Source of the DNA: Candidatus Desulfaltia sp.
GTDB lineage: Bacteria > Desulfobacterota > Desulfobacteria > Desulfobacterales > ETH-SRB1
Direction of reading: 5' to 3'
Length of the DNA stretch: 32,732 nucleotides
NCBI GenBank assembly: GCA_030656555.1
Contig: JAUSPN010000019.1
Location: 1 to 32,732, forward strand
The notes below the pieces were generated by a model that worked only from the letters and a program-made list of their open reading frames with translations, was not told where the DNA came from and ran no database searches. Below are positions 9,083 to 31,019 of the stretch, in pieces. The translations under genes were made by a program, and so were the position numbers. Within the stretch, counting starts at the first letter, position 1. Every line of letters begins with the position of its first letter.

Positions 9083-9457
9083 CTATTCACTGGAATCGTA
9101 ATCCCGCAAATACTTTCTAAGTCCCTTGGTTTGCTTACGACATTCCGAGGCAATCTCATAAGCCTGTTCAAACTGATTTTTGTTAATATATTTACAGTCT
9201 AATGCCCTATATAATTGGGATTGCACTTCACTGCACGATCTTTGAGAATACCCTAAGAACCGGATAAATTCACGAGTTGAACCATCGTCAAAGCCTTCTG
9301 CTATATTGTCCATTACCGAACCAGCAGCGCTCCAAATTTGATTCCTCAAGCTGAAATCCTTTGAAAATTTCCCTTGATTGATTAAATCAAAAATGAGCTT
9401 GCATAGCTCCCTCGACTTTTTCCAGCATGGTAATTCCTCAAATCTCTTATAATTCAT
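9083..9457 (-). CDS. Four-helix-bundle protein (23S rRNA intervening-sequence family)
   Basis: A 124-aa helical protein with the family's hallmarks: an early W-K-x-S-R-E-L helix, a central segment with SVMDNIAEGF, then FIRFLGYSQRSCSEVQSQL. This family was first found inside 23S rRNA intervening sequences and also includes the pentameric Avd accessory protein of diversity-generating retroelements. Here there is no rRNA, no reverse transcriptase and no template repeat nearby, so the role is unknown; nucleic-acid binding is the usual guess. It sits between leuC and lepA on the same strand and is flanked on both sides by GGAATT/GGGATTGA-type repeat words, which suggests it moved in as a small cassette. 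Start at ATG 9457. Confidence 0.85.
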   Translation of the reverse strand: MNYKRFEELPCWKKSRELCKLIFDLINQGKFSKDFSLRNQIWSAAGSVMDNIAEGFDDGSTREFIRFLGYSQRSCSEVQSQLYRALDCKYINKNQFEQAYEIASECRKQTKGLRKYLRDYDSSE

Positions 9458-9461
9458 AACC

Positions 9462-9568
9462 CCTCAATCCTTATTGAATTTAGGAAGTTAGGAATTGGGA
9501 AATTGGGGAATTGAAGGTGTCTTATTGATTTTAATCCCTCAATCCCTCAATCCCTCAATCCCTCAATC
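9462..9568. repeat. Octamer array running into the lepA stop codon
   Basis: Four exact copies of AATCCCTC occupy 9533-9564, followed by a partial copy to 9568. A degenerate 8-mer series (TTAGGAAG, TTAGGAAT and TTGGGGAA types) precedes it from about 9478. The TGA stop of lepA (plus-strand 9563-9565) lies inside the last copies, so the array abuts and partly forms the gene end. Confidence 0.75.
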
Positions 9569-13276: not shown

Positions 13277-13409
13277 AGTTACGAGTGACTAAAGTTGAGG
13301 TATTCTGCCAATTTTATATAAAAAATGGAGCGTAGCGACCCATTCTCTTTAGTTCACTTTGGGCGCTTTAGCTCACTTGTAACTTAGCACCTAACACTTA
13401 ACACCTAAC
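13277..13409. repeat. Imperfect inverted repeat with heptamer tail upstream of moeA
   Basis: The left arm at 13277-13294 (AGTTACGAGTGACTAAAG) is nearly complementary to the right arm at 13366-13384. Between them lies GAGCGTAGCGA (13328-13338), a variant of a core found in two other spacers. Four heptamers follow at 13382-13409 (ACTTAGC, ACCTAAC, ACTTAAC, ACCTAAC), ending 19 bases before the moeA ATG, where a ribosome binding site would normally sit. The preceding stretch 13136-13276 shows nothing I can name. Confidence 0.6.
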
Positions 13410-14682: not shown

Positions 14683-16611
14683 ATGACATCCAATCGTAAT
14701 GTTTATTTAAAAATGAAAACTCTGACAGAGGCTAAGGAAATTCTTTTTAATCGATTTGCTTTGACTGAAACGCTTGCAAGCGAAACAATTCAGGTCCCAG
14801 ATGCGGTCGGCCGGGTTCTTTCCGAGCCGGTTACAGCCAGGCTTTCATCTCCAAATTTTCATTCTGCTGCAATGGACGGCATAGTAGTCAAAGCAGAATC
14901 CACATTCGGCGCCAGTGAAACAAAGCCAAAGGAGCTTGTCATCGGCAAAGACGCTTTTTATATCAATACCGGCAATGTTATTCCTGAAGGATTCAATGCG
15001 GTTATTATGATAGAACATATAAATATTATAGATGAAAACCGTATTGAGATAGAGGCTCCTGCCTTTCCATGGCAGCATGTGCGAAAGATGGGTGAAGACA
15101 TTGTAGCAACAGAGCTTTTGTTTCCACACAATCATGTCATCACACCATATTGCGTTGGAGCCCTTCTCTCCGGTGGAATATTTTCGGTTTTGGTTAAAAA
15201 AAAGCCGAAAGTATTGATTATTCCAACAGGTTCAGAACTTGTTGACTGGCGCAAAACCTCAGTTGAAAAGCTTGAACCCGGCCAGATACTTGAAACAAAT
15301 TCATTCATGCTTGGGAAGCTTGTGGAATCGTTCGGGGGCGAGTATGTGCGGCATGAGATGGTAATGGATGATCCTAAAAAAATAAAGGATGCTGTTTATA
15401 ATGCCGTACAAAGCGATTTTAACATAGTATTTACTGTAGGCGGATCATCAGCAGGATCAGAGGATTATTCCAAAAGGGTAATTACAGATCTGGGCGAAGT
15501 ACTGATCCACGGGGTAACTATAATGCCCGGCAAGCCGGTCATTATAGGAGCAATAAATGACAAACCTGTCTTTGGTATTCCAGGGTACCCTGTATCTGCA
15601 ATAGTTGCCTTTGAACAGTTTGTCGCTCCGTTGTTATGCATGATGTTAGGAGTGCCGGAAAAGGAAAGGCCTTTGGTTCAGGTGGAGCCCACGAGAAAAA
15701 TCGCATCAAAGTTAGGCATGGAAGAGTTTGTGCGGGTTAAACTCGGCAAGGTCGGCAACAGGATCGTTGCCACACAACTCCCCCGAGGCGCGGGTTGCAT
15801 TACAACAATAACAGAGGCAGACGGAATCATCAGGATTCCAAACCATGTTGAAGGGCTGAAAGATCATGAACCGGTTGTTGCCGAACTTCTTCGTCCGCTT
15901 TCTTCTATAAACAACACCATCGTTATAGTTGGAAGCCATGACAATACTCTTGACCTGTTGGCCGACCGGATAAAGGCCGGACACAACAATCTTACCCTTT
16001 CGTCAAGCCACGTCGGAAGCATGGGCGGACTCATGGCCATCAAAAAAAGCGCCTGTCACCTGGCCGGCTCCCACCTTCTTGACGAAGAGGACGGTTCTTA
16101 CAACATATCCTATATAAAAAAATACCTGCCGGGCATGAGCATCAAACTGGTAAACCTTGTGTTTCGAGATCAGGGCCTGATCGTTCCTCAGGGCAACCCA
16201 AAGCAAATCAAGGGGATAGAAGATCTTGCCCGCGAAGATATTACGATGATGAACAGGCAGGCTGGATCAGGCACAAGAATTCTTCTCGATTACAGCCTTA
16301 AAGGGCTTAACATAAATCCAGGAGCAATAAAAGGATATGAAAATGAGGAGTTTACCCATATGTCCGTGGCCGTGGCTGTGCTGAGCGGGACAGTTGATGC
16401 GGGTCTCGGCATCTACGCTGCCGCAAAGGCTCTTAACCTTGATTTTATACCTGTTGTAACAGAAGAGTATGATCTTGTAATTCCTGAAGAATATTTTGAA
16501 TCAAAAAATATTCAAATCCTGCTTGAAACCATAAATTCGCAAGAATTTAAAAAGGCTGTTAAAGCCCTTGGAGGATACCATACTGAAAAAACGGGAGAGA
16601 TTATTATTTGA
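14683..16611 (+). CDS. MoeA fused to a C-terminal periplasmic-binding-like domain (642 aa)
   Basis: Residues 1 to about 405 are a second MoeA, with SPNFHSAAMDGI (56-67), VGGSSAGSEDYSK and FGIPGYPVSAIVAFE. From about residue 410 to 642 there is a type 2 periplasmic-binding-like domain, of the sort annotated as a LysR substrate-binding-like domain, including FRDQGLIVPQGNPKQI, NRQAGSGTRILLDY and GTVDAGLGIYAAAKALNLDF. There is no signal peptide, so this domain acts in the cytoplasm and probably senses or delivers an oxyanion or cofactor intermediate. The fusion is a recognised architecture (MoeA/LysR substrate-binding-domain protein). AGGAAGG precedes the ATG at a good distance. It is the second gene of the moeA pair. 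Confidence 0.9.
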   Translation: MTSNRNVYLKMKTLTEAKEILFNRFALTETLASETIQVPDAVGRVLSEPVTARLSSPNFHSAAMDGIVVKAESTFGASETKPKELVIGKDAFYINTGNVIPEGFNAVIMIEHINIIDENRIEIEAPAFPWQHVRKMGEDIVATELLFPHNHVITPYCVGALLSGGIFSVLVKKKPKVLIIPTGSELVDWRKTSVEKLEPGQILETNSFMLGKLVESFGGEYVRHEMVMDDPKKIKDAVYNAVQSDFNIVFTVGGSSAGSEDYSKRVITDLGEVLIHGVTIMPGKPVIIGAINDKPVFGIPGYPVSAIVAFEQFVAPLLCMMLGVPEKERPLVQVEPTRKIASKLGMEEFVRVKLGKVGNRIVATQLPRGAGCITTITEADGIIRIPNHVEGLKDHEPVVAELLRPLSSINNTIVIVGSHDNTLDLLADRIKAGHNNLTLSSSHVGSMGGLMAIKKSACHLAGSHLLDEEDGSYNISYIKKYLPGMSIKLVNLVFRDQGLIVPQGNPKQIKGIEDLAREDITMMNRQAGSGTRILLDYSLKGLNINPGAIKGYENEEFTHMSVAVAVLSGTVDAGLGIYAAAKALNLDFIPVVTEEYDLVIPEEYFESKNIQILLETINSQEFKKAVKALGGYHTEKTGEIII

Positions 16612-16614
16612 AAA

Positions 16615-16945
16615 TATGAACATCGAACGGATTAAAATACAAACATCGAACATCGAACATTGAACGTCCAACATCGAATGAAAAACAAAAGAAACGGAAG
16701 TAGGAAGACAATTCTTTTAAATCCCCTCTAACAAGAGGGGTGGACGCAAAGCGGACGGGGTGTGTAAAAATTGGAGTCGGAGGCTGAAGGCCAGATGTCA
16801 AATGTCAGAAAACCGGCAATCGTGAACCCTGAACCTTTGTTTTTATTTAGTATTGGTTTTTCATTCGATGTTGGAATAATTTGAGGAGCGAAGCGACATC
16901 ATTATTCGACGTTCGATGTTCAATGTTCGATGTTGGACGTTCATC
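16615..16945. repeat. Inverted pair of heptamer arrays around a palindromic core
   Basis: The left array at 16643-16677 has five heptamers (ACATCGA, ACATCGA, ACATTGA, ACGTCCA, ACATCGA). The right array at 16905-16939 has five that read as its reverse complement (TTCGACG, TTCGATG, TTCAATG, TTCGATG, TTGGACG). A further TCATTCGATGTTGGA copy lies at 16861. Between them are a CCCCTCTAACAAGAGGGG hairpin (about 16724-16741) and GAGCGAAGCGA at 16886-16896. This fills the whole gap between moeA and archease; no gene is seen, and open frames through it are repeat artefacts. Confidence 0.7.
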
Positions 16946-16983
16946 TTTTAAGGAGGCAGGAGGCAGGGATTAGTCTAAAAAAC

Positions 16984-17397
16984 ATGAAATACCGGATAAT
17001 CGATCATACCTCCGATTTTGGATTGCAGGTTTTTGGATCCGACATAAAAGCTCTGTTTGCCAATGCCGCTCATGCAATGATTGACCAGATTACCGATATC
17101 AACAGGTTAAAGGGCTTAAATGAATACTATGTTCATGTCACGGGGAGCGACCTGCCCGATCTTATGGTAAACTGGCTGAGGGAGGTTTTGTGTCTCTGGA
17201 CGAGTGAAGAAAAACTTGTTAAGAGCGCAAGAATTTTATTTCTTTCAGAATATGAGCTGTCGGCAAAGATAATGTATGATACTTATGAGCCTGGTCGCCA
17301 TATTATAAAAAATGAGATAAAGGCTGTAACCTATCATCAGATACAGGTTAAAAGCCTGCCGGACGGCTGGGAATCGCAGATAATATTTGATGTATAA
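16984..17397 (+). CDS. Archease
   Basis: Cofactor of the RNA ligase RtcB: archease accelerates RtcB guanylylation and supports multiple turnover. The N-terminal signature DHTSDFG (residues 7-13) matches the conserved DHTADxG metal-binding motif, and the C-terminal part has KAVTYHQIQV near 114-123, another family hallmark. The open frame extends upstream to 16930, but those codons translate a heptamer array, so the ATG at 16984 is chosen (137 aa, the usual size). An AGGAGG-rich stretch lies 16 or more bases upstream. rtcB follows after 94 bases on the same strand. Confidence 0.9.
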   Translation: MKYRIIDHTSDFGLQVFGSDIKALFANAAHAMIDQITDINRLKGLNEYYVHVTGSDLPDLMVNWLREVLCLWTSEEKLVKSARILFLSEYELSAKIMYDTYEPGRHIIKNEIKAVTYHQIQVKSLPDGWESQIIFDV

Positions 17398-17398
17398 G

Positions 17399-17475
17399 GA
17401 TTGATGATTGTCGATTTATGATTGTCGATTGAAAAGATAGAGCGAAGCGATTCCATCAATCATAAATCATAAATC
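17399..17475. repeat. Mirrored heptamer arrays between archease and rtcB
   Basis: Five heptamers at 17399-17433 (GATTGAT, GATTGTC, GATTTAT, GATTGTC, GATTGAA) are mirrored by three at 17455-17475 (ATCAATC, ATAAATC, ATAAATC). The core between them contains GAGCGAAGCGA at 17440-17450. RNA across this gap could fold into a long imperfect hairpin between two genes of an operon. Confidence 0.7.
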
Positions 17476-17491
17476 CAAAGGGGTTAGTGGT

Positions 17492-18925
17492 ATGGAATTA
17501 AAAAAAATAGATAATTACAGGTGGGAGCTGCCAAAGACAGGGGCTATGCGCGTGCCTGGCATCATTTATGCGAGCGCCTCCATGCTGAAAGATCAGGATC
17601 AGGAAGAACCCTTAAAGCAGGTTGCAAATGTCGCAACCCTTCCCGGAATTATTAAGGCATCGCTTGCCATGCCCGACATGCACTGGGGCTATGGGTTCCC
17701 TATAGGCGGCGTTGCCGCTTTTGACTGGGAATCCGGCGTCATATCCCCGGGCGGAGTCGGCTATGATATAAACTGCGGCGTCCGACTGGCAGGCACATCC
17801 CTTGTTGAAAAGGATGTCAGGCCAAGGCTTGAAGAGCTTATCAATGCTCTTTTTCAAAATATTCCATCCGGTATAGGCTCTACAGGCTCAATAAAGCTGT
17901 CGGCGGCTGAAGAGATAAAGGTTCTTAAACAAGGCGCCAAATGGGCTGTGCACAATGGTTTTGGAACTGATTCAGATATAGAACATACGGAAGACAATGG
18001 TTGCATGCTAAATGCCGATCCTGATACGATCAGCAAAAGAGCAATGGAAAGAGGAAAAAATCAGTTGGGCACTCTGGGTTCAGGAAATCATTTTGTTGAA
18101 ATAGGTGTGGTCGAGACTGTTTACGATCAAAAGGCAGCACGTATATTCGGGCTTTTTGAGGGGCAGATTACACTAATGCTCCATTCAGGTTCAAGGGGAT
18201 TCGGATACCAGGTCTGCGATGATTTTCTGGCTGCAATGGCAAAACATATTAATAAACTCGACTTTGATATACCTGACAGGCAGCTTTCCTGCGCAATGAT
18301 TCAATCAAAAGAGGGTATGAGCTATTTCAATGCAATGGCATGCGCCGCAAATTATGCCTGGGCCAACAGACAGATTTTAATGCACAGGGCGCGCGAGGTG
18401 TTCTCAAGAACGCTTGGCATAGGACCGAATGCGCTTGCAATGAATTTAGTATATGACGTTTGCCACAACATAGCAAAAAAAGAGGTTCATATTATAGGCG
18501 GGGAAAAGCGGCTTACATGTGTTCACAGAAAAGGGGCTACAAGGTCTTTCCCTCCGGGCAGTGAAGCCTTATGTGATGCATATCGCTCTGTGGGACAGCC
18601 TGTGATTATTCCGGGCGACATGGGAACAGCCTCTTATGTTCTTGTGGGAACACAAAAGGCCATGGAGGAAACCTTTGGCTCGACATGTCATGGAGCCGGA
18701 CGTGTTCTGAGCAGAAAGGCCGCAAAAAAGGCCTGCAAAGGCAGGTCAATACAGCACGAACTGGAAAACAAAGGGATACTTGCCAGATGGACCGGCAGAT
18801 CCACCCTCGCGGAAGAGATGCCTGATGCATACAAGGATATTTCAGAGGTGGTTGAGGTGGTTCATGGAGCCGGAATTTCGAAAAAGGTCGCTAAGTTAAG
18901 GCCCATGGCGGTCCTTAAAGGTTAA
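17492..18925 (+). CDS. rtcB: RNA-splicing/repair ligase RtcB
   Basis: GTP- and Mn-dependent ligase that joins RNA ends bearing 2',3'-cyclic phosphate or 3'-phosphate to 5'-OH. Visible motifs: MPDMHWGYGFPIGG (60-73), GGVGYDINCGVR with metal ligands Asp92 and Cys95, GTLGSGNHFVEIG, HSGSRGFGYQV and the active-site CHGAGRVLSRKAA, in which His400 would be the guanylylated histidine. Length of 477 aa fits the archaeal-like RtcB class that uses archease, consistent with its neighbour. AAGGGG lies about eight bases before the ATG. uppP follows six bases after the stop. Confidence 0.95.
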   Translation: MELKKIDNYRWELPKTGAMRVPGIIYASASMLKDQDQEEPLKQVANVATLPGIIKASLAMPDMHWGYGFPIGGVAAFDWESGVISPGGVGYDINCGVRLAGTSLVEKDVRPRLEELINALFQNIPSGIGSTGSIKLSAAEEIKVLKQGAKWAVHNGFGTDSDIEHTEDNGCMLNADPDTISKRAMERGKNQLGTLGSGNHFVEIGVVETVYDQKAARIFGLFEGQITLMLHSGSRGFGYQVCDDFLAAMAKHINKLDFDIPDRQLSCAMIQSKEGMSYFNAMACAANYAWANRQILMHRAREVFSRTLGIGPNALAMNLVYDVCHNIAKKEVHIIGGEKRLTCVHRKGATRSFPPGSEALCDAYRSVGQPVIIPGDMGTASYVLVGTQKAMEETFGSTCHGAGRVLSRKAAKKACKGRSIQHELENKGILARWTGRSTLAEEMPDAYKDISEVVEVVHGAGISKKVAKLRPMAVLKG

Positions 18926-21269: not shown

Positions 21270-22468
21270 TGAACAAGCTGAATAAGAAAATTTTTGGGAC
21301 TCTGTTCTTTTCAATATTTGCCACAGTTACAGGGGTTGGGATCGTGGTCCCCCTGCTCCCGGTCTATGCCCATAATCTTGGCGCAAGCGGCATATATATC
21401 GGTTTAATATTCGGTGTGTTTTCCCTTTCAAGAACCTTATTTTTGCCGTATTTCGGCGCGCTTTCAGATAAAAAAGGACGCAAACCGTTTATTATTGCAG
21501 GTCTTTTTTTATATAGCTTCATTTCCTTTTCTTTCCTGCTCGCAGATAGTATCCAATCCCTTATCATAATAAGGTTTTTTCATGGAATTTCATCCGCCAT
21601 GATGATGCCGGTCATACTGGCCTATGTAGGCGACATAACACCAACAAACAGAGAAGGGCTTACCATGGGTCTCTTTAATATGTCCATGTTCTTAGGCCTG
21701 AGTCTCGGACCTCTTGTAGGCGGAGCAATAAAGGACAGTTTTAGCCTGGATGCCTCATTTATCTGTATGGGGCTTCTCGCATTTACCGGCTTTTTATTAT
21801 CCGCTTGTTTACTTCCCCCTAAAAGTTCAGAAAAAATTATTCAAAGCAAAGAAAAACCGGCGAACTGGAAACAGCTATTAAAGAATAGAAATATTGTTGG
21901 ACTTTTTATTTTCAGATTTTCCTATGCAGCATGTATCGGAATTATATGGGGCTTTCTGCCTGTGTTTGCAAGCTCGAAGTTTTCACTTTCCAGTTCATTG
22001 ATCGGGGTTCTTGTTATGACAGGAGTTTTTGTCAGCGGATCATTGAATCTGCCGATGGGTTACCTTGCAGACAGGTTAAACAAAAAAGCTATGGTTGTAA
22101 CCGGAGGTTTTATATCGAGCTGCGCCCTTTTTTCATTTGTACTGGCAGACGGTTTTAAATGCCTGTTTTTATCAAATCTCCTTTTTGGACTCGGAGGGGG
22201 CATATCAATATCGGCGCTCATGGCGCTGGCTATATTAAAAGGCAATAAAACTAAAGCCATGGGATCGGTTATGGGTCTGATGACAATGGGGCACAGCCTT
22301 GGAATGGGGCTGGGATCGCTTTTCGCAGGCCTGATGATGGATGCTTTTGAGCTGCGCTATGCATTTTCATTTGGGTCCATTATTATGATGTGTGGAGTTG
22401 CTCTTTTCTTTATCTTCACATACAAAGAAAAAGTTGAAGCCTCTTTAATTATAACACAAGAAGGATAG
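21269..22468 (+). CDS. MFS transporter, DHA1 drug-efflux-like
   Basis: A 399-aa inner-membrane major facilitator protein with about 12 hydrophobic segments. The motif between the second and third helices, FGALSDKKGRKPFI (62-75), is the classic MFS motif A, and a shorter copy (GYLADRLNKKAMVV) stands at the start of the second half. The early GVGIVVPLLPVYA and the overall similarity point to the tetracycline/multidrug exporter group, but the substrate cannot be told. It is translationally coupled to the mutase gene by a TAATG overlap. Confidence 0.87.
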   Translation: MNKLNKKIFGTLFFSIFATVTGVGIVVPLLPVYAHNLGASGIYIGLIFGVFSLSRTLFLPYFGALSDKKGRKPFIIAGLFLYSFISFSFLLADSIQSLIIIRFFHGISSAMMMPVILAYVGDITPTNREGLTMGLFNMSMFLGLSLGPLVGGAIKDSFSLDASFICMGLLAFTGFLLSACLLPPKSSEKIIQSKEKPANWKQLLKNRNIVGLFIFRFSYAACIGIIWGFLPVFASSKFSLSSSLIGVLVMTGVFVSGSLNLPMGYLADRLNKKAMVVTGGFISSCALFSFVLADGFKCLFLSNLLFGLGGGISISALMALAILKGNKTKAMGSVMGLMTMGHSLGMGLGSLFAGLMMDAFELRYAFSFGSIIMMCGVALFFIFTYKEKVEASLIITQEG

Positions 22469-22474
22469 AGAATA

Positions 22475-22571
22475 ATTTTGAATTTTGAGTGTTGAATTTT
22501 GAGTTGAAGGGATTAGGGATAATTTTGAATTAAAAACGATTTTTCTCTGTGGTCTCTGTGGTCTCTGTGGT
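22475..22571. repeat. Period-7 and period-9 arrays after the MFS gene
   Basis: Heptamers ATTTTGA, ATTTTGA, GTGTTGA, ATTTTGA lie at 22475-22502. Three exact copies of CTCTGTGGT follow at 22545-22571. A larger array begins 54 bases later. Confidence 0.7.
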
Positions 22572-22624
22572 GAGACAAATAAGAATACTGGAAATTAGAA
22601 AATAGAAATTTGGAAAAGCGAAGA

Positions 22625-22757
22625 ACCCTGAACCTTGAACCCTGAACCTTGAACCCTGAACCTTGAACCCTGAACCTTGAACCCTGAACCTTGAACCCTG
22701 AACCCTGAACCTTGAACCCTGAACCTTGAACCCTGAACCTTGAACCCTGAACCCTGA
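22625..22757. repeat. Array of exactly 19 heptamers upstream of mqnE
   Basis: 133 bases made of 11 copies of ACCCTGA and 8 of ACCTTGA with no other variation. With C for ACCCTGA and T for ACCTTGA, the order is CTCTCTCTCTCCTCTCTCC, mostly alternating (a 14-bp higher-order unit). It ends nine bases before the mqnE ATG and takes the place of the ribosome binding site and perhaps promoter elements. Open frames through it translate as a VQGSGF-like repeat and are not genes. Confidence 0.95.
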
Positions 22758-22766
22758 ATAATTACT

Positions 22767-23852
22767 ATGAAACTGTCTTTTTTAGATAAAAGTTTATATA
22801 AAATAAAAGAAAAGGTTGAGACCGGAATCCGCCTTGGTTTTGAAGACGGCATTATCCTGTATAAAACCAATGACCTGATAGGTATTGGACGTCTGGCAGA
22901 CATGGTGCGCAGCAAAAAACATGATCGCAAAGCCTACTATATATATAACCAGCATATAAATTACACGAACATCTGTTTAAACCACTGTTTGTTTTGCGCA
23001 TATTCCAGAAATGAAGGTGAAAATGGCGCCTTTACATTCTCAATTGATGATGTCAGGGCAAAACTTCTGGAGCGAATCGACGAACCGGTTCGCGAATTAC
23101 ATGTTGTTGGCGGCCTTAACCCTTCCCTCCCCTTTGATTATTACCTCGATCTGCTAAAAACCATTAAAGAGACCAGGCCGAATGCAACCATCAAGGCGTT
23201 TACCGCTGTTGAGATAGATCATATTTCCAGGATTGCAAATTTGTCTCTGGATGAAACTATCATCAGCCTGAAGAATGCCGGTCTTTCAATGGTCCCTGGT
23301 GGCGGCGCCGAAGTAATGAGTAGCAGAGTTAAAAAAAAGCTCTTTCCTAAAAAGATAGACAGTAAAAGATGGCTTGAAATCATGGAGAAGTTGCATAACG
23401 CGGGCATTGTTTCAAATGCAACAATGCTTTATGGCCAGATTGAAACCATTGAAGAACGCGTTGATCACCTTATCAGGTTAAGAAATCTGCAGGATAAAAC
23501 AGGCGGCTTTTCAGCCTTTATTCCCCTTGCCTTTCATTCAAAAAACACAAAATTATCAAAAATCCCGGCCACCACGGCCTTTGACGATTTAAAGAATGTG
23601 GCGACAGCCCGCCTGATGCTTGATAATTTTGATCACATCAAGGCATACTGGGTTATGATAGGAGAAAAACTGGCGCAGGTCGCGCTTTCCTTTGGAGCAG
23701 ATGATTTGGACGGAACCATAATCGAAGAAAAGATTACCCATATGGCCGGTGCAAAATCGGCAAAAGGATTGACCCGGGAGCAGATAAAACATCTTATATC
23801 TTCGGCAGGGTTTACTCCTGTTGAGCGGGATTCTTTTTATAATTCTATCTAA
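22767..23852 (+). CDS. mqnE: Aminodeoxyfutalosine synthase
   Basis: Radical SAM enzyme of the futalosine route to menaquinone, joining SAM-derived adenosyl to 3-[(1-carboxyvinyl)oxy]benzoate. The [4Fe-4S]-binding CxxxCxxC is Cys70, Cys74, Cys77 (ICLNHCLFCAY). Other family segments are HVVGGLNPSLPFDYY, MVPGGGAEVMSSRV and TGGFSAFIPLAFH. 361 aa is normal. No Shine-Dalgarno is visible before the ATG; the 19-copy heptamer array ends nine bases upstream. mqnC follows after about 200 bases on the same strand. Confidence 0.92.
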   Translation: MKLSFLDKSLYKIKEKVETGIRLGFEDGIILYKTNDLIGIGRLADMVRSKKHDRKAYYIYNQHINYTNICLNHCLFCAYSRNEGENGAFTFSIDDVRAKLLERIDEPVRELHVVGGLNPSLPFDYYLDLLKTIKETRPNATIKAFTAVEIDHISRIANLSLDETIISLKNAGLSMVPGGGAEVMSSRVKKKLFPKKIDSKRWLEIMEKLHNAGIVSNATMLYGQIETIEERVDHLIRLRNLQDKTGGFSAFIPLAFHSKNTKLSKIPATTAFDDLKNVATARLMLDNFDHIKAYWVMIGEKLAQVALSFGADDLDGTIIEEKITHMAGAKSAKGLTREQIKHLISSAGFTPVERDSFYNSI

Positions 23853-27753: not shown

Positions 27754-28026
27754 TATCCAACCTCTCAATGTCGGCCTGGTCCTGAAGGGAATTCCTTTGT
27801 CTTTTTAACCAGATAATATCCGATTTTTCCGCCACACGTGCAATGCCATGCTCCCCGTGAGCAATAAGAGCGTTTTCAATAATTTCTATGTGTTTTTTAT
27901 TTCCTGCAACCAAAATATCAATGATCATTTGGTCATTTTCAATGGCTTTGAAGAAACGACGCAGAGTTAAAGGGGTGCTTTTAAATGTCCATGCTTCTCC
28001 TGATTCTATACATAATTTGGGGATGC
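27740..28026 (-). pseudogene. C-terminal remnant of a nucleotidyltransferase-like protein
   Basis: The frame is open from about 28,057 to the stop at 27740, but it has no start codon before 27928. It reads GIPKLCIESGEAWTFKSTPL, then PLTLRRFFKAIENDQMIIDI, LVAGNKKHIEIIENALIAHG, and ends with SDIIWLKRQRNSLQDQADIE. The late pattern DxIxLKxxRxxxxDxxDIxxL is what many AbiEii/MNT-like nucleotidyltransferases show at their C-terminus; this assignment is an inference. The N-terminal half with the catalytic GS...DxD is missing and is replaced by a RAYT fragment, so it is a 5'-truncated gene. Confidence 0.5.
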
Positions 28027-28029
28027 CCT

Positions 28030-28338
28030 TTAGTTTTGCAGTTTTAGGCCTAAGGGTCGATTAATTTGTAGCCCTTTTCTTTTACTATTCTCTCTCCTCG
28101 CTTTACAGACAAACTTAGTAGAAATCGGCATATCACCGGTTTTTAGCAGCAAATGAAAATGATTAGGGATAAGCGCCCAGCCAAAACAACACGTATTAGT
28201 TTCCTTAATTATTTTGCCAAGCCGGTTTAAAAAATTATTACGGTCGGTATTGTCCTTAAAGATATCGGAACGCTCAATCCCACGTGCTATGATATGATGA
28301 AACGCTCCAGGCGCATCTGTTCTCGATTTTCTTGGCAT
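28030..28338 (-). pseudogene. Truncated RAYT / Y1 (IS200-like) transposase, N-terminal part
   Basis: Begins MPRKSRTDAPGAFHHIIARG and has the HUH motif His60-Phe-His62 in ALIPNHFHLLLKTG, typical of REP-associated tyrosine transposases (usually 150-330 aa). After about residue 74 it departs from the family and stops at residue 102, so the helix with the catalytic tyrosine is absent. Not expected to be active. It abuts the truncated nucleotidyltransferase remnant, which it probably disrupted. A second, unrelated-position RAYT piece lies at 29332-29709. Confidence 0.8.
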
Positions 28339-28340
28339 GA

Positions 28341-28613
28341 CAACCGCTTGGCATATTACTGATAATTTGTAAACTGCAAAACTAAAGGGCCCTACTTTTC
28401 CAACGCGCTCAACCGTCGCCTGACCATCGATAAGATGCCCTATACATCGGAGTAGTATCCCTCTTCCTCCTGGAAGTATGACATGTGTACATAAACACTG
28501 TCGTTTTTCCCGAAACCAACGGAGCAGATCTTTCGATGGCCAGCGTCCAATGACTGAACGGTCACCACATGTCTATCCGCGAATACAGTGTTTGGCGGCA
28601 TCACATCAAACAT
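28341..28613 (-). pseudogene. Frameshifted remnant of an unrecognised hypothetical gene
   Basis: From the ATG at 28613 one frame reads MFDVMPPNTVFADRHVVTVQ, SLDAGHRKICSVGFGKNDSV and YVHMSYFQEEE before a TAG at 28440-28442. In the neighbouring frame the text continues sensibly (GRGILLRCIGHLIDGQATVE, then RVGKVGPFSFAVYKLSV) to the RAYT start. The switch point is near 28465. The composition looks protein-like in both halves, and I have an impression of a conserved hypothetical family with an H/R-K-x-C-S-x-GFGK segment, but cannot name it. It is probably a dead gene cut by the RAYT fragment. Confidence 0.4.
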
Positions 28614-29719: not shown

Positions 29720-31019
29720 GGCTCCTCGCTGTTTCATGTGGGTAGGTTGAAATTTAACTTACCGCTGATTAAGTAAATCATGGTGATCAGATATCGGTTG
29801 TTACGGTAGCCTCTTGCTCTGGCTTTAGCGGCCTGAACCATGCTGTTGATTCCTTCAAGGATGCCGTTGTTTATTCTGGATTTGAACCAGTTGATAATCC
29901 CGTTCCAGTGACGCTTGATGGTATAGGCAGCTTCTTTTATCGGCTCCAAACGACTATGGGTTGCCCAGTAGTACCATTTTTTCAGATAGGCTTCCGCTTG
30001 GTCCGGAGTCTGGTTCCAGAGTTCCTGAAAACTCAATCGAATATGGTATGCGCGTACGGTTTTCAAATGAAAATCTTTCAGCTTGAGATCCTCCAGTCGA
30101 TCAGCCTGTTTCAGGGTAAGATTTTCAGGATTTTTCAAAAAGATGTACCTGGTATTTTTTAGTTCGGGATGGTCTGTTTGTTCCTGACGCCGAACCTCAT
30201 CTACCGCTGTGTTGATCATTTTAGTTATGTGAAATTTGTCAAAGGTGATCTTCGCATTGGGCAGATTTTCTTCTACCCCTTTGATGAATGCAGGCGACAT
30301 ATCGCAGCTGACATCCTGAATACCATCTGGATTGCCTCCGTGCTCAATAAGATCATCTTTGAAGCTCACCACAGTGGCGCTATCCTTGCCCTCTGTGGCA
30401 AAGATGGTTTTGGACTTTTCAAGATCAACAAAGATGGACACATAATTATGACCGCGTTTGCTGGATGTTTCATCAACACCAACTTGTTTTATGTCAGAAT
30501 AGTCTGCCTGTTCTCTTGCTTCTTCGACATGATGATGCAGGATTCGCCACAAACGGGTATCGTGTTCTGTAACCAGTTCAGCCATCTTTTTAACCGGCAT
30601 GGATGGCGACAGAATCATGATATAGGCTTCAAACAACAGGGTGAATCCACTGCCGGATCTTGCCCAGGGAACATTAATCAGCTTGACGCCGCACTGATCG
30701 CACCGAATACGGGGCACCCGGGCGTTCATATAGGTTTCATGCTGGAAAAAATTCATATGCCTCCAGGATTGGAACTCTGTGTCATGAACGGCGCAATCTG
30801 ACCGAGCGCATTCCGGACAGCTAAACCGGCTACCCTTGGAAAAATCCAGATGAATATCCAGACGCTTCTGGTTTGTATCTATTCCGCACCCCACAACCTG
30901 CCACGGGGGTGTCAACATTAACGCAATTTGTAAAAGTTCGGTATCTTTCATAATGACTTAACCTAACACGATCCAGATAGCAATTCAACAAGGTTACCCA
31001 CACGAAACAGCGAGGAACC
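29720..31019 (-). mobile_element. ISL3-family insertion sequence (about 1.3 kb)
   Basis: The terminal inverted repeats agree at 23 of 25 positions: 29720-29744 (GGCTCCTCGCTGTTTCATGT and GGGTA) and the reverse complement of 30995-31019. One intact transposase lies between. The flanking 8-mers (ATTTTAAT on the left, CTTCATAT on the right) are not a convincing target duplication, although ISL3 elements usually make 8-bp duplications; this suggests a deletion or rearrangement next to the element. Confidence 0.88.
29734..30951 (-). CDS. ISL3-family transposase (405 aa)
   Basis: DDE transposase. The N-terminal zinc finger shows CPEC near residue 40 and CDQC near residue 84. The catalytic domain follows: VGVDETSSKRGHNY (first Asp), DVSCDMSPAFIKGV (second Asp) and GILEGINSMVQAAKARARGY (Glu). 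Length is normal and no disruption is seen, so it may be active. Its 3' end overlaps the left inverted repeat. It is the only apparently intact mobile-element gene in the window. Confidence 0.92.
   Translation of the reverse strand: MKDTELLQIALMLTPPWQVVGCGIDTNQKRLDIHLDFSKGSRFSCPECARSDCAVHDTEFQSWRHMNFFQHETYMNARVPRIRCDQCGVKLINVPWARSGSGFTLLFEAYIMILSPSMPVKKMAELVTEHDTRLWRILHHHVEEAREQADYSDIKQVGVDETSSKRGHNYVSIFVDLEKSKTIFATEGKDSATVVSFKDDLIEHGGNPDGIQDVSCDMSPAFIKGVEENLPNAKITFDKFHITKMINTAVDEVRRQEQTDHPELKNTRYIFLKNPENLTLKQADRLEDLKLKDFHLKTVRAYHIRLSFQELWNQTPDQAEAYLKKWYYWATHSRLEPIKEAAYTIKRHWNGIINWFKSRINNGILEGINSMVQAAKARARGYRNNRYLITMIYLISGKLNFNLPT

Follow-up and report, generated by a model that had tools for sequence, protein, structure and literature searches.

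REPINs are paired, inverted palindromes that are non-autonomous, carry a GTAG tag and are linked to RAYTs (REP-associated tyrosine transposases). CGTC-tagged REPs have been described as small intergenic palindromes, often arranged as opposite-orientation pairs, with a base tag of CGTC or TGTC followed by A-T pairs, a stem of 8 to 9 bp counted from A-T, T-A, a loop of 4 to 5 nt and a CCA-like tail, and in the parts of that survey describing them no transposase is associated with these repeats (Di Nocera et al. 2013, PMC3733652). From nucleic acid chemistry, a GNA or GNNA loop carried by two or more G-C pairs is described as an extraordinarily stable DNA mini-hairpin, GCGAAGC melting at 78°C (PMC4686876). 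The promoters of the phage N4 virion RNA polymerase are reported to contain a hairpin that extrudes in living cells by supercoiling, in a gyrase-dependent manner (PMC4496689). Heptameric repeats, finally, have been reported as GGGAATC in Xanthomonas and GGGGA(T/C)T in Nostoc (PMC4692102) and as TAACTGA in Beggiatoaceae (PMC4679880).

Results

In the window, that is, the whole stretch of 32,732 nucleotides of Candidatus Desulfaltia sp. that was analyzed, an 11-nt core, GAGCGAAGCGA, is found in two exact copies and as the variant GAGCGTAGCGA (Table 1). Allowing at most one mismatch, there are 4 core matches in the window versus 0.35 expected, a number reached in 1 of 100 shuffles. The two exact copies are located on the gene strand, in co-directional gaps of a one-direction gene run with two MoeA-like ORFs, archease and RtcB (the names archease and RtcB were tested against Pfam, while MoeA-like is a name only). 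The variant lies in a divergent gap, on the strand of the gene that follows.

The first-pass annotation had described, in the two gaps on either side of archease, a heptamer array mirrored across the core as its reverse complement. Arrays, cores and inverted arms are indeed present: TRF detected arrays at 16642-16678 (period 7) and at 16905-16942 and 17399-17432 (period 14, twice 7), and inverted arms surround both core 16886 (16632-16679 with 16904-16951, 48 nt, 83% complementary) and core 17440 (GATTTATGATTG at 17413-17424 with CAATCATAAATC at 17457-17468, exact). However, the element at 16886 is not a simple succession of arm, core and arm, since its left array stops ∼195 nt short of the core and an inverted second piece of the array lies in between. 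Similarly, the variant core reported before moeA does lie between inverted arms, but these are made of 9- to 10-nt words (e.g., CTTTAGTTCA and CTTTGGGCG) and not of heptamers. Close forms of the AT-rich spacer beside this variant are present in other word-armed copies, and the inner palindrome around core 16886 (arm class C) was found in 8 copies in the window's own genome and 13 in a sister genome, among the 40 and 82 cores read there.

Table 1 Features of the core-containing elements in the window
Feature	Position	Strand	Basis
Left arm of the moeA-side element, AAAGT-type 9- to 10-nt words, not heptamers	13277..13300	+	Sequence
AT-rich palindromic spacer GCCAATTTTATATAAAAAATGG; its last G is core letter 1	13307..13328	+	Sequence
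Core GAGCGTAGCGA, predicted DNA mini-hairpin with GTA loop	13328..13338	+	Sequence
Right arm of the moeA-side element, reverse-complement words	13347..13385	+	Sequence
Left heptamer array, AACATCG/AACATTG/AACGTCC words, plus TGAAAAACAAA	16642..16689	+	TRF, inverted-repeat search
Inverted, partial repeat of the end of the left array, on the left side of core 16886	16857..16875	+	Inverted-repeat search
Inner palindrome GAATAAT...ATTATTC around core 16886, arm class C	16874..16907	+	Sequence
Core GAGCGAAGCGA, predicted DNA mini-hairpin with GAA loop	16886..16896	+	Sequence
Right heptamer array, left array's vocabulary reverse-complemented	16908..16944	+	TRF, inverted-repeat search
Left heptamer array, GATTGTC/GATTTAT/GATTGAT words, archease-rtcB gap	17399..17431	+	TRF
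Core GAGCGAAGCGA, predicted DNA mini-hairpin	17440..17450	+	Sequence
Right array CAATCATAAATCATAAATCC	17457..17476	+	Sequence

Across 408 kb of the own genome, namely, the window and three long contigs, arrays most often had period 7. A relaxed scan yielded 21 arrays of period 7, none of period 6, 6 of period 8 and 13 of period 14, with none in one Markov resample, while a strict threshold yielded 2 period-7 arrays; 7 of the 21 lie inside the window. The longest heptamer array of the window (22619-22764) consists of ∼19 direct GAACCCT/GAACCTT units, and no inverted repeat was found in 22440-22780. An array of octamers, AATCCCTC, is located at 9533-9568, near an ORF at 9083-9457 (minus strand) that encodes a four-helix-bundle protein of the 23S rRNA intervening-sequence type (PF05635). 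The window also contains an ISL3-family transposase (29734-30951) and, near the contig end, an inverse autotransporter beta-domain (PF11924; 31036-31815, minus strand).

The corresponding gaps of sister genomes contain other words or lack the core. Sister genome G004 has arrays without a core before archease and a direct GGGATTA array before rtcB, the archease-rtcB gap of G001 (L110) keeps GAGC and GCGA with 25 nt between them in place of the GAA loop, and the same gap in G013 is 8 nt long. The elements in these gaps turn over fast, and the comparisons give no direction of change.

Outside these gaps the core is abundant. The own genome contains 20 exact copies of GAGCGAAGCGA versus 1 of the reversed pattern, and 43 of GAGCGNAGCGA versus 4. 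Across 58 genomes (the own genome, 16 of its family and 41 of its order), GAGCGNAGCGA was found 1,798 times versus 235 for the reversed pattern; 22 of the 58, the own genome included, have at least 20 core copies and five times the control, and many others are near control. In the own and a sister genome, 23 of 116 classified core copies fall inside open frames.

We read the arms of 122 core copies, 40 of the 43 from the own genome (those with short flanks and duplicates were dropped) and 82 of 152 from one sister genome. About 10 arm types surround the same core: TCATTGC, TCATTTC and TCATTCC, the same with an extra GAG/CGA step, a CACCCG stem, and array-type arms of the CATCGAA-, AAAGTG-, TTGAAGA-, GATTGTC- and GAATTTC-type. 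Some of these copies have no arms, and a few are located in coding frames. Sister genome G001 additionally contains copies (L161, L164, L177, L184 and similar) with a one-sided CGACCACT-type array followed by CAATTGT-core-ACTAAGTT, some of them apparently right in front of an ORF start.

By a looser criterion, 19 of 40 own-genome cores and 41 of 82 sister cores have inverted arms, versus ∼7% expected; a stricter threshold leaves 13 and 30, respectively. Inverted arms are thus strongly enriched at cores, yet about half of the copies have no detectable arms. The genome-wide search proposed with the first-pass annotation therefore finds arms far above expectation, and its view that differing words share one architecture of arm, core and complementary arm applies to a wider range of arm types than it described, although at about half of the cores. 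Its further expectation, that compensation between arms exceeds chance, mostly fails. Matched arms in 100 copies scored 14.1, versus at most 11.6 in 10,000 permutations, but within the main word class (9 copies) compensation is lacking, an arm's own partner scoring 28.1 and a swapped partner 28.25 (P = 0.56), and the second class (13 copies) shows it weakly (22.7 versus 20.4, P = 0.04). Given that the own partner fits no better, or only slightly better, than that of another copy, the arms are complementary by vocabulary and not copy by copy. The mirrored heptamer arrays are real; a copy-by-copy match between them is absent in the main class.

The core itself was assessed in short-armed relatives, retrieved with fixed short arms (TCATTNC) and a free middle. 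Among the 300 matches listed, which favor the genomes listed first, 262 have an 11-nt middle; the other 38, which have no 11-nt core in register, were left out of the counts. In these 262 listed rows, core letters 3 and 9 form a Watson-Crick pair in 238 (G-C in 154, C-G in 78, A-T in 6), versus 146 in the largest of 5,000 permutations, and letters 4 and 8 in 232, versus 214. Reduced to 83 distinct rows, pair 3-9 is found in 60 versus 46 for the largest permutation, and pair 4-8 in 58 versus 57. Other letters of the 262 listed rows are kept, namely, G1·A11 in 231, A2·G10 in 235, and G5 with A7 in 202, around any base at position 6; in 38 rows letters 5 and 7 are both A, giving ANA loops that depart from the GNA rule. 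We take G1·A11 and A2·G10 to be tandem sheared G·A pairs, a geometry assumed from the letters and general structural knowledge.

An alignment of short-armed elements was restricted to distinct rows with pairing arm letters, and 26-mers were trimmed of their additional base to the right of the core. For its 65 distinct sequences, the paired cells, the doubly changed cells and the covariation score each exceeded all 500 shuffles, whereas two of the five measures, the number of doubly changed pairs (347 of 500) and that of further pair types (254 of 500), were not above shuffles; these shuffles overstate independence, since the rows are related copies. The covariation score was 0.553 in the core register and at most 0.096 in slid registers. 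At the level of letters, pairing of the core in the short-armed relatives is shown by compensating changes at 3-9 and 4-8, and the core follows the GNA/GNNA mini-hairpin rule, with the G and A of the loop usually kept and both pairs mostly G-C.

A scan of named loci used a pattern that allowed four combinations at 3-9, unpaired ones included, and 80 of the 120 stretches listed became loci. Pair 3-9 was present in 98 of 98 copies at these 80 loci (51 G-C and 47 C-G, no G-G or C-C), a result that informs this pair only, since the pattern fixed the loop G and A and pair 4-8. According to our grouping of the record titles, the loci span a dozen or so phyla, including Bacteroidota, Omnitrophota, Thermodesulfobacteriota, Chloroflexota, Hydrogenedentota, Armatimonadota, Riflebacteria, Calditrichota, Actinomycetota and others. 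Most records are metagenome bins, and the isolates include Luteimonas marina, Mucilaginibacter lappiensis and Thermonema rossianum. Thirteen stretches of a viral collection were matched by the short-armed relative; a distant-mode search with window positions 16600-17500, low-complexity filter on, gave no plasmid match.

Of the matches in the 408 kb of the own genome to the motif written as GA-XY-GNA-Y'X'-GA, 17 of 47 in noncoding DNA and 14 of 161 in coding DNA are paired, while eleven control motifs in the noncoding DNA of the same 408 kb gave 17 paired of 209. Three of the 17 paired noncoding matches come from the window. Heptamer arms contain two of the 17 and another has an AT stem, so that about three may be due to chance. 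Among 38 rows retrieved with a free core between heptamer-type near flanks, 25 contained GAGCGAAGCGA; the others had single changes or decay, and no compensated pair change was seen in these 38 heptamer-armed rows. The hairpin predicted for the window-type elements is therefore drawn from the identity of their core with that of the short-armed relatives. ViennaRNA with DNA parameters, in which tandem sheared G·A pairs are unmodeled, gave no stable fold for the bare 11-mer and a z-score below −2 in 2 of 8 elements. A related hairpin in genome G047, TCATTCCTGC-GGAA-GCAGGAATCT, combines a GNNA loop with a stem paired throughout and is present in at least 8 identical copies.

Discussion

We consider it fairly probable that these elements belong to the REP kind of palindromic repeats, being short and non-autonomous, and that they function as single-stranded DNA in folded form, with the 11-nt mini-hairpin as their apex. 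In this apex, G1·A11 and A2·G10 would form tandem sheared pairs below two Watson-Crick pairs (3-9, then 4-8) topped by a G-N-A loop, and the heptamer-armed copies of the window, having the same 11 letters, would fold alike. The tip may nucleate a hairpin or cruciform from supercoiled or lagging-strand DNA, by analogy with the GNA-loop hairpins of phage N4, and a candidate single-strand-DNA enzyme or replication template switching could copy and spread the elements via the folded form. Heptamer arrays would then be interchangeable material for a long, imperfect stem, and since any array in both orientations around the apex would serve as a stem, the words can differ between copies. A hairpin apex would account for the use of one 11-letter word on unrelated arms, separating the conserved part, the cap, from the interchangeable part, the heptamer arms.

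The elements could instead be a neutral by-product: slippage would lengthen the arrays, template switching in quasi-palindromes would mirror them, and the core would be no more than a point of frequent fold-back. Period-7 arrays built of many unrelated words, different words in the same gap of sister species and a main class lacking copy-specific arm matching all fit such an origin. We nevertheless hold it unlikely, given that the kept non-Watson-Crick G·A letters, the GNA loop, the compensating changes and the recurrence of the same apex on short arms across phyla are left unexplained.

The RNA hairpins suggested in the first-pass annotation imply that the moeA-archease-rtcB transcript includes the elements and that their structures stabilize the mRNA, serve its processing or act as terminators. 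The orientation of the three window cores described above would agree with this, as would the RNA folding of 2 of 8 typed elements, which beats shuffles (z-scores of −1.83 and −2.95), and the long stems into which longer stretches fold. However, among the 116 copies classified in two genomes, the core is on the gene strand in only 27 of 54 co-directional gaps. G·T is no commoner than A·C, either in the two core stem pairs (8 versus 9) or between arms (52 versus 44). The loops GATA (at least 2 rows) and GTTA (at least 1 row) fit GNNA and not the RNA GNRA rule, and the window has no Rfam match at gathering score. With no strand preference, no G·U-tolerant covariation and no Rfam family, we rejected a transcribed RNA element, which we regard as improbable. 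In the own and the sister genome, the same apex is reused on many arm types without strand preference relative to genes. Since the core strand ignores gene direction and G·T is not in excess, the sequences favor folding as DNA. Of the alternative in the first-pass annotation, spread as hairpin-ended DNA, the DNA hairpin is favored, and spread by it is hypothetical.

If the folded DNA is mobilized, a RAYT would be a candidate, as for REP and REPIN elements. The own genome has 11 RAYT-model and 9 Y1_Tnp matches, the window includes a truncated RAYT-like ORF, and, among the matches listed, the short-armed relatives often occur in opposite-orientation pairs ∼51 nt apart. Core and RAYT counts, however, do not convincingly track each other across the 58 genomes (rho = 0.23, P = 0.085; per Mb 0.30, P = 0.02 overall, 0.19, P = 0.47 inside the family and −0.14, P = 0.38 outside it). 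In genome G027 (83% complete), 206 cores are present without any RAYT match, while G017 has 11 matches and 3 cores; AGCGNAGC is absent from the 9 fetched Y1_Tnp loci, and the base tag is TGTC or CGTC, not GTAG, in at least 89 of 98 short-armed copies. RAYT was thus rejected as the mobilizer, given the lack of a core in the 9 Y1_Tnp loci and the counts, and we assign this explanation a similarly low probability. The RAYT-like ORF itself (28030-28338, minus strand) resembles NF047646 with an E value of 1.6e-5, below the cutoff, has no Pfam match at 0.001 and is accompanied by 20-bp exact inverted repeats at 28025-28044 and 28371-28390.

Least probable is that the elements are MITEs of a DDE transposase in which heptamer arrays by chance form the terminal inverted repeats; this would fit inverted recurrent outer ends such as ATGAACGTC and GAGACCTTTGCA in several copies but not arms that span from 5-bp REP-like stems to long arrays.

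Returning to the DNA mini-hairpin, a bolder version, which we find rather doubtful, is that GA-XY-GNA-Y'X'-GA is a universal DNA hairpin cap, a structural signal recognized by a widespread putative single-strand-DNA enzyme, so that any sequence occurring in both orientations, heptamer arrays among them, could act as a mobile palindrome. If true, it would unite the CGTC-type REPs, which have no known transposase, and the heptamer-armed elements in one mechanism. The apex could offer a structural handle for fishing out a protein acting on CGTC-type REPs, for which the 2013 survey, in the parts describing them, found no dedicated transposase.

Comparison with known systems

The elements described here are, like REPINs, paired inverted and non-autonomous, whereas the GTAG tag and the RAYT link were not found, the tag having been evaluated on the short-armed copies.

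The short-armed relatives resemble CGTC-tagged REPs in their base tag, with TGTC in 79 and CGTC in at least 10 of 98 copies (counting the twelve commonest tags). Their stem comprises 5 arm pairs, 2 G·A pairs and 2 core pairs, its A-T start being imposed by the search pattern. Compared with the published description (PMC3733652), they differ in having mostly a 3-nt GNA loop above tandem G·A and no CCA tail; loops are of 3 nt in the 262 listed rows with an 11-nt core, and the tails are varied. Given these differences in loop and tail, we treat the short-armed elements as relatives of the CGTC REPs and not as members. The window elements differ further from that description in having heptamer or 9- to 10-nt-word arms, and we do not file them as members of the CGTC-REP superfamily.

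Like the arrays of the window, the GGGAATC repeats of Xanthomonas are intergenic heptamer arrays, with 70 and 75 close inverted pairs in two genomes, in contrast to the GGGGA(T/C)T repeats of Nostoc, for which few inverted pairs are reported (PMC4692102). The Xanthomonas, Nostoc and Beggiatoaceae repeats differ from ours in that each study deals with one word, and the parts of these papers describing the repeats mention no apical core (PMC4692102, PMC4679880). Among the papers listed by open-access full-text searches, which match unbroken strings, none describes this apex in repeats in its title or abstract start.

Phage N4 promoters share with the predicted core a 3-nt loop, a sheared G:A and a C:G closing pair, with the difference that the promoters are read by a polymerase (PMC4496689), a role of which there is no indication for the core. 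The center of the core shares the loop rule and the two G-C pairs of d(GCGAAGC) and the other GNA/GNNA mini-hairpins of Hirao and colleagues, which, as described there, are synthetic DNA and aptamers (PMC4686876), whereas the core is the kept, G·A-flanked apex of natural repeats. A mini-hairpin known from chemistry would thus recur as the conserved, covarying apex of natural repeats in a dozen or so phyla.
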